Origin: Alsobacter soli
GTDB lineage: Bacteria > Pseudomonadota > Alphaproteobacteria > Rhizobiales > Beijerinckiaceae
Direction of reading: 5' to 3'
Length of the DNA stretch: 34,096 nucleotides
Assembly: GCF_003004785.1 (NCBI RefSeq)
Contig: NZ_PVZS01000032.1
Span: forward strand, 25,981-60,076
Each line of letters begins with the position of its first letter. Position 1 is the first letter of the stretch. The translations under genes were made by a program, and so were the position numbers. The notes beneath the pieces were generated by a model. It was not told where the DNA came from, ran no database searches, and worked only from the letters and a program-made list of their open reading frames with translations. Of this stretch, positions 25,818 through 29,767 are shown in pieces.

Positions 25818-26049
25818 GGCGCTACCTAAACAGGACTCGCACGGCAAGCGGATGACACGCGCCTTGCGCATCTCACAAGGTGGGCAAGGGCGGGGCCCGG
25901 TCGTCTCGCGCACTATCACCCAGATGTCACGATCCCAAAACGTTTGCTGTGTCATGCTGTTCTGCGTAATTTGGCGCGCCTTGCGGGAGCTAGAGCGCTC
26001 TGAGAGGCTGGATCTCGCGCGAGGCGACCCAGGGTCGCCCGCCGCCTGA
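25818..26049. other. 232-bp gap: agt upstream region and 3' end of the sigma gene
   Basis: This region must hold the agt promoter on the minus strand, but no boxes could be placed with confidence. TGTCAT/TGTCAC half-sites occur on both strands (25852-25858, 25925-25930, 25951-25956) without the 11-bp PHO-box spacing. AAACGTTTGC (25938-25947) matches the core of the LacI operator at 16893-16906. Confidence 0.35.
26023..26039. terminator. Dyad just after the sigma-factor stop codon
   Basis: GGCGACCC-A-GGGTCGCC is a perfect 8-bp inverted repeat beginning 10 bp past the sigma gene stop (minus strand). There is no T-tract, so it may act as a 3' stabiliser or a weak terminator. Confidence 0.4.
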
Positions 26050-26955
26050 TCACTGTGTCCGGGAGTTCGGGTCCGGCTCCGCCGCGAGAGCCTGAGCGAC
26101 GTGGCGAAGCTTGTCAGGATTGCGGGTGATGTAGATCGCCGTGATCCGGCCGTCCTCGATGGCGAGCGCTGTTGTCTGGAGGACATCGCCACGCTCGCGG
26201 CTGACGTAGCCGGGCAGCCCGTCGATCCAGACGGGTTCGAGCAACTGCGCCCAGCCTTCCCCCCACTTGGACCGCACAGCCTCGTACAGCCGTAGGAGGC
26301 GGTTCAATCCCGTGATGGGGTTGATGAAGGCTAGAACCTTGCCGCCGCCGTCCGAACGCAGCACGGCGTTCTCGGCAAGAAGCGTGCGCAGCGTTGCGGT
26401 GTCGCCGGTGGTGGAAGCCGCGAAGAAAGCACGTGCGATCCGCTCGCCCTGTTCGCGTTCGACCGGAAAGCGCGGACGCGCGGCCTGCACGTTTCGCCGC
26501 GCCCGGACGGCGAGTTGGCGCACGGCCGCGGCTTCCCGGCCGAGCGTGTCCGCCACCTCGCCGAGCGGAACGCCGAAGACGTCGTGGAGGAGGAAGGCGG
26601 CCCGCTCGAGCGGCGAAAGGCGCTCCAGCGCCATCATCAGCGTCAGCGTGAGGTCGTCCTCGTCCACGCCGTCCTCCTCCGTTTTCAACAGAGGCTCGGG
26701 CAACCAGGCGCCCACGTAGGTCTCGCGGCGGGCGCGAGCCGACTTCATCTCATCGAGGCAAAGTCGCGTGACGACGCGCGTAAGGAAGGGATACGGAGCG
26801 GCGACCTTCGTCTGGTCCACCGTCACCCAACGCAGCCATGCGTTCTGTACAACGTCCTGGGCTTCGCTGCGCGAGCCAAGCATGCGGTATGCAATACGCA
26901 GGAGCCGCGCCCGATGGGTCTCGAAGATGACCGTGGCGTCGTCTACCTGCTGCAT
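26050..26955 (-). CDS. sigJ: ECF41-type sigma factor (SigJ-like) with C-terminal SnoaL-like domain
   Basis: 301 aa. Sigma region 2 (about 10-75: RIAYRMLGSRSEAQDVVQNAWLRW) and region 4 (about 105-155: ERLSPLERAAFLLHDVFGVP with DTLGREAAAVRQLAVRAR) are joined by a linker with the group signature WLPEPL (84-89). Residues 170-290 form a SnoaL-like domain with the two ECF41 hallmark motifs DGGGK (202-206) and NPDKL (279-283). In ECF41 factors this fused domain modulates promoter recognition, in place of an anti-sigma factor. The neighbours are the classic ECF41 partners, an epimerase/oxidoreductase and a carboxymuconolactone decarboxylase. It is probably last in an nmrA-cupin-sigma transcript. Confidence 0.95.
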   Translation of the reverse strand: MQQVDDATVIFETHRARLLRIAYRMLGSRSEAQDVVQNAWLRWVTVDQTKVAAPYPFLTRVVTRLCLDEMKSARARRETYVGAWLPEPLLKTEEDGVDEDDLTLTLMMALERLSPLERAAFLLHDVFGVPLGEVADTLGREAAAVRQLAVRARRNVQAARPRFPVEREQGERIARAFFAASTTGDTATLRTLLAENAVLRSDGGGKVLAFINPITGLNRLLRLYEAVRSKWGEGWAQLLEPVWIDGLPGYVSRERGDVLQTTALAIEDGRITAIYITRNPDKLRHVAQALAAEPDPNSRTQ

Positions 26956-27037
26956 GTGCGCTTCCTTGATGGTGGATTCGGCTGCCTAGGCGATGATGGC
27001 CACGGATGAGCCCCGCCGCCCAAGATACAAGGGTGCG

Positions 27038-27463
27038 CTACGGGCGGTCCGGCTTCGTCAGCGCGGTGTCGTTCGTATCCACGACGAAAACGGCAAGGAG
27101 CCCGGACGGCTCGACGTCACTCGCGTTGGCGCTGACGCCGTGGTGGTCGCCCGGCATCTCAACGAAGCTCTCGCCGACCCGAAAGACCTTCTCCGGGCCG
27201 TCGTTGATCCGGCTGCGCACCGCGCCCCTGATCACAGTCGCCGTGATGAAGGCGGATGCGGCGTGGGTGTGAGACGGCGACGAGCCACCAGGGCCATACT
27301 CCACCAGGACACCGCGCAGGCTCTTGCCGGGAACCGAAGGCAGAGGATGGTCGAAGATCGTGGTCACGCGTGCCTCGCCCTTCGCGACATCTGCTGCCAT
27401 GGCGGGGACAGCTGAGACGGAGGATACGGCAAGGCAGGCTGCCAGCAGGATTGTTCTCGACAT
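27038..27463 (-). CDS. Exported cupin-domain protein
   Basis: 141 aa. The signal peptide (MSRTILLAACLAVSSVSAVP, cleavage near AMAA) sends it to the periplasm. One cupin barrel: motif 1 GGSSPSHTHAASAFITATVIRG (H65, H67, no usual Glu close by) and motif 2 VGESFVEMPGDHH (E98, H107/H108), a probable metal site. It lies between the NmrA-like gene (41 bp upstream) and the ECF41 sigma gene (82 bp downstream) on the same strand, so it is likely co-transcribed. Small exported cupins of this type are often annotated as stress-related; the substrate is unknown. Confidence 0.88.
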   Translation of the reverse strand: MSRTILLAACLAVSSVSAVPAMAADVAKGEARVTTIFDHPLPSVPGKSLRGVLVEYGPGGSSPSHTHAASAFITATVIRGAVRSRINDGPEKVFRVGESFVEMPGDHHGVSANASDVEPSGLLAVFVVDTNDTALTKPDRP

Positions 27464-27504
27464 GGAACGGGTCTCTCTTCGTGGATGGGGGACGCGCGCA
27501 GGGT

Positions 27505-28254
27505 TCAGGCGGCGGCGAGCCAGCTCTCGAACCGCGTCGGCCCGAGCCGCGCCGCTCCCGCATGCTCGGGAACAAGCGAACCCGGCTCGAGCGCGGCGCC
27601 GAAGTAGAGCGCCGCCCTGTCGGCCTGCACCTCCCGATGGTCGCCGCGAGCAGCGATGCGGCGGGCGACGAAGTCGCGGAACGGCAGGCGGTCGGGCCCG
27701 GCGATCTCGATCGTGACGTTGCGCGGCGGAGCGAGCGCGACATCGGCGAGCGCTGCGGCGACATCGGCGGCGGCGATGGGCTGGAAGTCGGCATCGGGTA
27801 CGACGAGGCGGTCGCCGTCGACGGCAGCTTCGGCGATGGTGGCGACGAACTCGAAGAACTGGGTCGCGCGCACGATGGTGAAGGGGATGCCAGAGGCCTT
27901 GATGAGCCGCTCCTGCGCGACCTTGGCCCGGAAGTAGCCGTTCCCCTCGAGGCGGTCCGTGCCGACAATGGACAGGGCGACGTGATGCTTCACGCCCGCC
28001 TGGCGCTCAGCCGCGAGGAGGTTACGGCCCGAGCGCTCGAAGAAGTCGAGCACCGCCGCATCCTCGAAGGAGGGCGAGTTCGCGACGTCGACGACAGCCT
28101 CGGCTCCGGGGAGGACTTCGGCGAGGCCTTCGCCCGTCAGCGCGTTCACCCCGCTGCTGGGCGATGCCGCGATGGCCTCATGCCCCAGTCGCGAGAGTTC
28201 AGCTGTCAGGCGCCGGCCGATGAGACCGCTTCCGCCTATCACCACGATTTTCAT
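27505..28254 (-). CDS. NmrA-like SDR-family epimerase/oxidoreductase (ECF41 partner)
   Basis: 249 aa. N-terminal NAD(P)-binding Rossmann motif GGSGLIGRRL (7-16), then VDVANSPSFEDAAVLDFFER, HHVALSIVGTDR, YFRAKVAQERLIKASGIPFTIVRATQFFEF and a C-terminal substrate domain: an atypical short-chain dehydrogenase of the NmrA/NAD(P)H-binding type. It starts at ATG 28254 behind GAGGAG. This is the oxidoreductase/epimerase class that ECF41 sigma genes usually accompany. A second ECF41-type promoter lies 70-97 bp upstream. The small-molecule substrate is unknown. Confidence 0.92.
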   Translation of the reverse strand: MKIVVIGGSGLIGRRLTAELSRLGHEAIAASPSSGVNALTGEGLAEVLPGAEAVVDVANSPSFEDAAVLDFFERSGRNLLAAERQAGVKHHVALSIVGTDRLEGNGYFRAKVAQERLIKASGIPFTIVRATQFFEFVATIAEAAVDGDRLVVPDADFQPIAAADVAAALADVALAPPRNVTIEIAGPDRLPFRDFVARRIAARGDHREVQADRAALYFGAALEPGSLVPEHAGAARLGPTRFESWLAAA

Positions 28255-28323
28255 GGTACCGTCTCCTCTTTGAAAACGGACGGGGCGGCTCCATGCCGCC
28301 TTCAGGTGTGAGTTGAAGAAAAG

Positions 28324-28351
28324 GACGATGCGGGTTGGGCGGTATGTGACA
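28324..28351 (-). promoter_or_regulatory. ECF41-type promoter upstream of the NmrA-like gene
   Basis: Minus strand: TGTCACA (28351-28345), 17-bp spacer, CGTC (28327-28324). Both boxes match the ECF41 target consensus (TGTCACA / CGTC); the spacer is one base longer than at the other site. The leader to the ATG at 28254 is about 60 nt. Confidence 0.72.
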
Positions 28352-28419
28352 TGCCCAGGCAAAAAGCTTCTGAGGTGAGACGCGGAGTTGCGGGTCAACA
28401 TGCGATCACCATCGGCGGG

Positions 28420-28442
28420 AAAAGGACGGCGCTGGCGCCGCC
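28420..28442 (-). terminator. Intrinsic terminator after the carboxymuconolactone decarboxylase gene
   Basis: Minus strand: GGCGGCG-CCAG-CGCCGTC (7-bp stem with one G-U, 4-nt loop) followed by CTTTT, beginning 22 bp after the stop codon. The T-run is short. It separates this gene from the NmrA-like gene, which has its own ECF41 promoter. Confidence 0.5.
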
Positions 28443-28463
28443 TAGACGGTGTCATAGGGCCGA

Positions 28464-28919
28464 CTAGGCCTTCGCTTTGACCGGAAGGCGAAAGGGCGCC
28501 CCAAGCCGATTGAAGGCGTTCATCGCAGCGATGGTGATCGTGAGGTCCACGAGGTCCTTCGGCGCGAAGGCCGCGCTGGCGGCTGCATAGGCCTCGTCGG
28601 AGGCGTGCGTCTCGCTGACCAGCGTGACCTCCTCCGCCCAGGCGAGCGCCGCGCGGTACTGGTCGGAAAAGAGATGCGGCGCCTCGGCCCAGACCGGAAC
28701 CAGGACCACCTTCTCGATCGGCATGGTCTTGAGCAGGTCGCGCGTATGGAGGTCGATGCAATGCGCGCAGCCGTTGATCTGCGACACACGCAAGAAGATG
28801 AGGTGGATCATCTCATTCGGCAAGTCAGTGGCCGTGGTGATGTAGTGGTGGATGCCATAGAGCGCTTTGGCGCCCTGCGGGGCCACCTCGTTCCAGACCA
28901 GTCGCTTGTTCTCGCTCAT
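28464..28919 (-). CDS. Carboxymuconolactone decarboxylase/AhpD-like protein (ECF41 partner)
   Basis: 151 aa, all-helical. The redox/proton-relay motif is CAHCIDLHTRDLL (C51, C54, H58), the AhpD-type CxxC-x3-H site, preceded by MIHLIFLRVSQING and followed by RAALAWAEEVTLV. CMD/AhpD proteins act as peroxidase reductants or decarboxylases; those next to ECF41 sigma factors are thought to respond to oxidative or electrophile stress. A matching ECF41 promoter lies 47-73 bp upstream and a terminator just downstream, so it is probably a separate one-gene unit in the same regulon. Confidence 0.94.
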   Translation of the reverse strand: MSENKRLVWNEVAPQGAKALYGIHHYITTATDLPNEMIHLIFLRVSQINGCAHCIDLHTRDLLKTMPIEKVVLVPVWAEAPHLFSDQYRAALAWAEEVTLVSETHASDEAYAAASAAFAPKDLVDLTITIAAMNAFNRLGAPFRLPVKAKA

Positions 28920-28965
28920 GTCTCGTCCTTGTGCTCGGAACGCGGATATTGACGTTCGAAGCAGT

Positions 28966-28992
28966 GACGAGCCGAGCGACCCTCGTGTGACA
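28966..28992 (-). promoter_or_regulatory. ECF41-type promoter upstream of the CMD/AhpD-like gene
   Basis: Minus strand: TGTCACA (28992-28986), exactly 16-bp spacer, CGTC (28969-28966). This is a full match to the ECF41 promoter consensus as recalled. The expected start near 28959 leaves a leader of about 40 nt before the ATG at 28919. Confidence 0.82.
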
Positions 28993-29409: not shown

Positions 29410-29557
29410 AACCGCATCGACTTTGGCCGGACAATCGAGCCGTTGCCCTTGGCTTAGCCGGGCGCACGTTCAGACTTTCTCCAAAATTCGACTAATCGGA
29501 GCGGCGTCGCTGTTCGGCGCTCTGCTTCAGCATGCGCTTGCGCTAAAGGATAATACA

Positions 29558-29767
29558 ATGACCAACGGCACCGTGAAATTCTACAACGACCAAAAAGGCT
29601 TCGGCTTCATCGCCCCGCAGGACGGCAGCACTGACGTGTTCGTGCATGCAACCGCTCTTGAGCGAGCCGGTATGCGCGGTCTGACCGAGGGCCAGCAGGT
29701 CATGTTCGACACCGAGATCGATCGCCGCAGCGGCAAGACCGCCGTGCGGAACATCGAGGCCGCGTAA
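29558..29767 (+). CDS. cspA: Cold-shock protein, CspA family
   Basis: 69 aa, one cold-shock OB fold. RNP1 is KGFGFI (residues 13-18, in YNDQKGFGFIAPQ) and RNP2 is VFVHAT; the N-terminal GTVKFYN is canonical. It binds single-stranded RNA/DNA and acts as an RNA chaperone. The ATG at 29558 is preceded by AAAGGA. A probable long leader lies upstream, and a UUCG hairpin and a strong terminator lie downstream. The cspA symbol is a family label; these genomes carry several paralogues, not all cold-induced. Confidence 0.95.
   Translation: MTNGTVKFYNDQKGFGFIAPQDGSTDVFVHATALERAGMRGLTEGQQVMFDTEIDRRSGKTAVRNIEAA

Follow-up and report, generated by a model that had tools for sequence, protein, structure and literature searches.

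A conserved pair of predicted target promoters at an ECF41 sigma factor locus of Alsobacter soli, whose sigma gene probably activates itself

We analyzed a stretch of 34,096 nucleotides from Alsobacter soli (the window, whose numbering is used below), in which a sigma factor of the extracytoplasmic function (ECF) group ECF41 is encoded together with its putative targets on the minus strand. Along that strand the order is a first ECF41-type promoter site (P1), a gene of the carboxymuconolactone decarboxylase (CMD)/AhpD family, a hairpin, a second site (P2), an NmrA-like gene, a small cupin gene, and the sigma gene. The sequence strongly supports the assignment of the sigma factor to ECF41 and the presence of two target promoters with spacers of 16 and 17 bp. 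We consider it likely that the locus is a self-contained, portable ECF41 regulon with two copies of the promoter and with positive feedback, the sigma gene being included in the P2 unit. This reading builds on the sites, their spacing and their conservation, on the gene families, and on the lack of a motif before the sigma gene.

P1 (TGTCACA-N16-CGTC, 28966..28992, minus strand) lies before the CMD gene, and P2 (TGTCACA-N17-CGTC, 28324..28351, minus strand) lies before the NmrA-like gene. Both are exact matches, just as the original prediction had placed them, and both agree with the published ECF41 consensus, TGTCACA-N16±1-CGTC, as given in the consulted part of the 2012 study of this group (PMC3426412). 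With spacers of N15-18 allowed, the pattern occurs twice in the window versus 0.06 expected, and none of 100 shuffles gave two matches. A genome-wide search for TGTCACA-N16/17-CGTC, which had been proposed as a check, returned three matches in 5.19 Mb, two of which are P1 and P2. The third, the only other N16-17 site that could point to a further regulon member, begins with the second base of a probable ATG, lies within a reading frame that by eye resembles a LysR-type regulator, and is probably a chance match. A TGTC-type variant of the −10 element gave one match genome-wide, no better than its reversed control (1 vs 1). It could be argued that P1 and P2 are themselves chance matches, as three genomic sites do not exceed a rough chance estimate (~5 in uniform sequence). 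Their significance comes from position and conservation, not from the genome-wide count; the window shuffles, the strand, the position, and the conservation across 80 loci rule this explanation out for practical purposes, and we regard it as extremely improbable.

The relatives used for this comparison are the best 80 of 156 loci encoding sigma homologues, found by a scan with the sigma protein and totaling 0.94 Mb; they are cited here by locus number where needed. They contain 91 exact sites upstream of the sigma gene on the sigma strand, none downstream of the sigma start, and three in antisense orientation, or two when the spacer is restricted to N16-17. At least one exact sense site lies upstream of sigma in 73 of the 80 relatives, and all 91 sense sites are within 2.3 kb of it. 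In the same loci, the reversed motif gave no upstream, one downstream, and no antisense match; one scrambled motif gave none upstream, one downstream, and eight antisense, and a second scrambled motif gave none anywhere. The true motif with spacings of 30-33 matched 20 times upstream, which we take to reflect a second CGTC in the conserved CMD leader. Antisense sites in L058 and L071 could serve divergent genes, the one in L071 standing before an NmrA match on the same strand. In a Geminicoccus locus (L054:5099-5167), sigma is immediately preceded by an ECF41 site whose first base lies 68 bases ahead of the point where the sigma match starts.

The window and 20 of the 80 relatives carry a CMD gene of the window's type and an NmrA gene, each with its own site; we refer to these as the 21 dual loci. 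They come from Alsobacteraceae, Methylobacteriaceae, Aurantimonadaceae, Xanthobacteraceae, Rhizobiaceae, and Phyllobacteriaceae, plus one Myxococcota record. The P1 spacer is N16 in all 21, and L017 and L026 each have a single substitution in the P1 −35 element; the P2 spacer is N17 in 19 and N16 in the other two (L012 and L020), with a −10 of CGTT in L005. Columns of the −35 and −10 elements are 98.7-100% conserved (the P1 set includes L022), compared with 71-79% upstream of the boxes, 80-83% in the spacers, and 88-91% in the leaders with the start codon. Both sites also occur in a plasmid copy and in two further relatives beyond the 21; L133 and L009 probably belong to one species. A set of 40 genomes was drawn as relatives and included that of the window. 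A sigma match of any kind is present in 20 of them, and only two besides the window's own genome match sigma at more than 80% (94% and 87%); each of these two carries both sites, one of them with an altered −35 base. One dual locus, L019, is without the cupin gene, and the NmrA match of another, L020, is in two pieces.

Natural variants lack one unit or the other. In a Bosea locus (L022), the order is P1-CMD-sigma, with P2, the NmrA gene, and most of the cupin gene missing; its alignment to the window breaks off 6 bases past CMD and picks up again within the final 22 bases of the cupin gene. Five loci (L021, L023, L024, L025, and L027) have the order P2-NmrA-(cupin)-sigma and are without CMD. 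In a tree of the sigma proteins, 26 rows form a supported clade (100/99) made up of the 21 dual loci, four NmrA-only loci, and one CMD-only locus. We sorted the other 54 loci as follows: in 31, a single site precedes a different type of CMD gene (34-46% identity with the window's); in 11, a site stands ahead of NmrA-(cupin)-CMD-sigma; a Skermanella locus (L050) has two sites in a different order; and the remaining 11 include seven without an exact site.

The sigma gene (26050..26955, minus strand) encodes 301 amino acids. The ECF-type sigma regions 2 and 4 are present (PF04542, 6.6e-14; PF08281, 2e-11), and a C-terminal SnoaL-like extension is recognized through the SigJ model NF007214 (370 bits over residues 5-287, cut-off 271) and through Mycobacterium tuberculosis SigJ (PDB 5xe7), a likeness by sequence alone that covers residues 11-284, extension included (E 5.7e-47). 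The three motifs reported earlier were all located in this frame (26955-26050): WLPEPL at residues 84-89, DGGGK at 202-206, and NPDKL at 279-283. Among 81 sigma proteins (those of the 80 relatives and of the window), 73 have an exact WLPEP, 80 have DGGG[KR], and 80 have NPDK. We take DGGGK and NPDKL to be the letters of conserved motifs of the ECF41 extension. The WLPEP linker is a trait of the group, and the extension has three conserved motifs, which the consulted part of the source does not spell out (PMC3426412). This sigma factor is the sole one of its type found in its own genome; the two best matches after it share 32% and 28% identity over only about half of its length.

The neighboring genes also fit ECF41, whose loci carry genes for carboxymuconolactone decarboxylases, oxidoreductases, or epimerases (COE) beside sigma. 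The CMD/AhpD-family gene (28464..28919, minus strand) encodes 151 amino acids with a CxxC motif (CAHC) and matches PF02627 (E 2.2e-11) and the AhpD core model TIGR00778. The NmrA-like gene (27505..28254, minus strand) encodes a NAD(P)H-binding protein of 249 amino acids (PF13460, 2.8e-11; PF05368, 6.6e-07), the "epimerase" class of COE in Wecke's terms, as far as the consulted text goes. The small cupin (27038..27463, minus strand; PF07883, 5.9e-11) starts with a signal-peptide-like segment and is probably exported, judging by eye from the hydrophobic N-termini in relatives. No anti-sigma gene was found among the five other open reading frames scanned at the locus. We considered the cupin as a ChrR-type anti-sigma factor and judged this unlikely because of its signal-peptide-like start, read by eye.

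Published ECF41 systems provide the frame for these observations, as described in the parts of the sources that were consulted. Versions of the motif are found at mapped start sites in Sinorhizobium meliloti, R. sphaeroides, and B. licheniformis, the last with a −10 of TGTT (PMC3426412, PMC3616915). Where COE genes lie upstream of the ECF gene, the motif precedes the COE gene in 97 of 107 loci and the ECF gene in none; the authors concluded that ECF41 factors generally have one target gene or operon and suggested that sigma is co-transcribed, so that autoregulation through an upstream COE promoter has already been proposed (PMC3426412). Four cupin neighbors are also mentioned there. The A. soli locus shares with these systems the WLPEP linker, the C-terminal extension, the TGTCACA-N16±1-CGTC promoter, the COE neighbors, the lack of an anti-sigma gene, and the proposed co-transcription of sigma from a COE promoter (PMC3426412). 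It differs in having two separate target promoters where one target transcript is described, and in combining a cupin gene with COE genes of two classes. S. meliloti RpoE9/SMb20029 likewise has a CMD gene upstream of sigma and the same motif, 9 nt upstream of the mapped SMb20029-rpoE9 start, but it is reported with a single CMD target and a single promoter (PMC6180224, PMC3616915).

Two conserved promoter-like sites before two genes thus depart from the generalization of a single target gene or operon. Because close relatives keep both sites, a two-promoter variant of a switch formerly described with a single target appears well supported. What appears to be new is the conserved second target promoter, the natural variants without one unit, a CMD unit common to loci of very different ECF41 factors, and an NmrA leader with apparent covariation. 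No title among those listed in the literature searches, which did not extend to supplements, deals with a two-promoter ECF41 cassette, and priority is not settled.

Between the two units, a G+C-rich hairpin of nine pairs lies 3′ of the CMD gene (28424..28442, minus strand; stem 28442-28424) and is followed by TTTT at 28423-28420. The original prediction had read 28420-28442 as an intrinsic terminator that separates two transcription units. The stem is real and conserved: across the 19 distinct rows among the 21, pairing holds in 95.9% of cells, though its covariation is not above shuffles. The T-run fared less well: TTTT within 10 nt after the hairpin occurs in the window only (1 of 21 dual loci), so a canonical intrinsic terminator is not supported, and a terminator scan requiring at least five T in eight positions does not report the hairpin. 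The role of the hairpin may be to end the CMD transcript or to protect it. Of its two arms, only the first persists in the CMD-sigma gap of the Bosea locus (L022:5828-6000). Another run of T, located some 9 nt 5′ of the P2 −35 element (28361..28365, minus strand), is TTTT or longer in 20 of the 21 dual loci; an UP-like element and a transcript end are candidate roles.

Since the stem is conserved and the T-run is not, the CMD transcript may also read into NmrA-cupin-sigma. Each unit keeps its own site, as originally described, but strict separation by a terminator is now a weak part of that description. Under an alternative reading, the locus is one long operon with an internal promoter, in which P1 transcripts would cross a weak hairpin into the NmrA, cupin, and sigma genes, P2 would boost the distal genes, and both would feed the loop. 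The rarity of the T-run and the silence of the terminator scan favor it, as does the Bosea locus, where P1-CMD directly precedes sigma. The same locus also counts against it, as P1 would have to serve sigma there and the second hairpin arm is missing along with P2, the NmrA gene, and most of the cupin gene; this is one case, and the conservation of the stem itself elsewhere points the same way. We therefore treat a single long operon as a serious but less probable alternative to two separate units.

The proposal that P2 drives sigma, and hence that sigma activates itself, turns on the region just before the sigma gene. In the dual loci, no exact ECF41 motif was found before sigma or cupin, so any ECF41-driven expression of sigma would come by read-through, most simply from P2. 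The poorly conserved cupin-sigma gap and the ECF41 site at most 2.3 kb upstream in 73 of 80 relatives also fit the positive autoregulation put forward in the original prediction, which we continue to hold as an inference. Sigma might instead be made mainly from a separate housekeeping promoter, with the ECF41 sites driving the enzymes only; the gap of 82 bp would leave room for this, and some basal supply of sigma is required whichever reading holds. The poor conservation of that gap, the proximity of ECF41 sites in most relatives, and the failure of a scan with a simple consensus to find a sigma-70-like site make this alternative unlikely in our judgment, and the sigma gene probably activates itself.

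Based on studied ECF41 factors, from which recognition of the motif and control by the C-terminal extension are carried over, we propose the following mechanism. Until a signal is received, sigma would be restrained by the SnoaL-like domain at its own C terminus. The active factor would then direct RNA polymerase to both promoter copies: P1 would yield the CMD/AhpD enzyme, and P2 the NmrA-like protein, the exported cupin and, last in the unit, sigma itself. Sigma made from P2 would thereby feed activation back positively. The read-through from P2 to sigma, the separateness of the two units, and the feedback loop are inferred. As a guess, the circuit could mediate an oxidative or electrophile response, which fits a CxxC enzyme and a NAD(P)H-binding protein; the 2012 ECF41 study tested many conditions and, in its consulted part, reports no confirmed phenotype and did not find the signal or purpose.

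Several points weigh against the self-activating, two-promoter regulon that we prefer. Published ECF41 factors show one target transcript each in the consulted texts (PMC3426412, PMC6180224), and the dual-locus architecture is predicted here from genome sequences. Seven of the 80 relatives are without an exact site (L033, L034, L038, L045, L060, L061, and L080), although the L033 record holds only 123 bases before the sigma match. A basal promoter is needed to start the loop, and none was identified in the scan, which used a simple sigma-70-type consensus only. The Pfam SnoaL_2 match to the extension is weak (20.2 bits vs a cut-off of 27). To these we add the unremarkable genome-wide count of sites and the T-run seen in the window only.

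The stretches between the −10 elements and the start codons were also compared. The one after P1 (28920..28965, minus strand) has 46 nt and is mostly 5′ leader; the mapped S. meliloti promoter suggests a transcript start about 9 nt after the P1 CGTC (PMC3616915, part consulted). The CMD leader has a mean column identity of 90% in 22 sequences. Within 28920-28957 (minus strand), about 30 nt (GAACGTCGAT...) are nearly invariant across genera, including loci with a different sigma factor. A pattern of P1 plus leader was found in 2 of 397 genomes of the order; the window itself misses the strict pattern by one leader base. We rejected a hairpin in this leader, where 89% of cells are paired yet there is no covariation, as well as a small reading frame, which, judging by eye, 4 of the 22 sequences interrupt with gaps of a single base.

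Between the P2 −10 element and the start codon of the NmrA-like gene (28255..28323, minus strand), a two-helix fold is conserved. In 26 sequences (24 distinct), 93.9% of cells are paired and eight cells are changed on both sides, with neither value reached in 500 shuffles; four pairs have a double change, reached by 8 of 500 shuffles. In the window the outer helix is partly broken, with three unpaired positions read by eye. Pairing with the anti-Shine-Dalgarno sequence was rejected for this leader, at 82.5% paired and not above shuffles.

Leaders of the other CMD type (32, of which 27 are non-redundant) have a perfect stem of at least 5 in 16 of 27 cases versus 4.7 expected (maximum 12 in 1000 shuffles) and versus 15 of 69 control leaders (Fisher P 0.0006). 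All 42 non-redundant leaders together give 24 with such a stem versus 9.4, several of them being homologous NmrA leaders, and their mean folding z is −0.62 versus −0.25 in 150 control leaders (P 0.02). Against a role of leaders in control, the CMD leader is without covariation, and folding energies clearly exceed shuffles in one of nine sequences. A held-out plasmid set gave a further point against it. This set took 25 loci from the 60 listed among 223 records; a site is present in 21 of these 25, and stems of at least 5 occur in 7 of 21 non-redundant leaders versus 4.0, reached by 82 of 1000 shuffles. Stems of at least 6 occur in four versus 1.1 (13 of 1000 shuffles). Rfam gave one sub-threshold snoRNA match on the opposite strand, taken as chance. 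We treat leader structure across ECF41 targets as a lead from sequence comparison, not a result.

The cassette behaves as a block. DNA similarity of dual loci to the window begins no more than 37 bases ahead of P1 and reaches no more than 109 bases past sigma. When the flanks of 26 loci were compared in 325 pairs (E up to 1e-10), 5′ flanks matched in 14 pairs and 3′ flanks in 76; the 3′ stretches were longer than the 5′ ones, and the 3′ matches are partly a gene resembling short-chain dehydrogenases/reductases (SDR) after sigma. A mobilizable plasmid of Methylobacterium oryzae (L106, NZ_CP090350.1) carries a full cassette, with an IS3 transposase adjacent to it. In the cassette of L014, filed as Enhygromyxa salina (Myxococcota), transfer or contamination may be involved. 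Two Microvirga plasmid loci (L108 and L110, 2349-2908 in each) encode a CMD protein 92-93% identical to the window's beside a sigma factor only 61-63% identical; CMD and sigma both have ECF41 sites, which face opposite ways between them. This contrast suggests exchange of the CMD unit between loci. A bolder reading is that ECF41 regulons are assembled from portable units (promoter, structured 5′ leader, and target gene) that move between different ECF41 factors, with the leaders adding a post-transcriptional layer, either 5′-end protection or gated ribosome binding. The identity contrast in Microvirga, the covariation in the NmrA leader, and the stems in 16 of 27 leaders of the other CMD type are the grounds for it, and we offer it as a speculative and rather doubtful extension.

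ECF41 is a large sigma-factor group, and a conserved two-promoter version offers ready-made comparisons. The one-unit variants, together with near-identical CMD genes beside different sigma factors, bear on the importance of each target, the need for feedback, and the way in which a sigma factor acquires a second target. If transcripts confirm the two units, an exception will have to be made to the rule that an ECF41 factor has a single target transcript.

At the borders of the cassette, the start of the downstream SDR-like gene (25941..25955, minus strand; SDR by eye) is represented in the window by its first five codons only. This gene is kept after sigma in some relatives, such as L004, and the DNA similarity to them ends at 25941-25955. 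On the other side, a cold-shock-domain gene adjoins the cassette on the opposite strand (29543-29767, plus strand).

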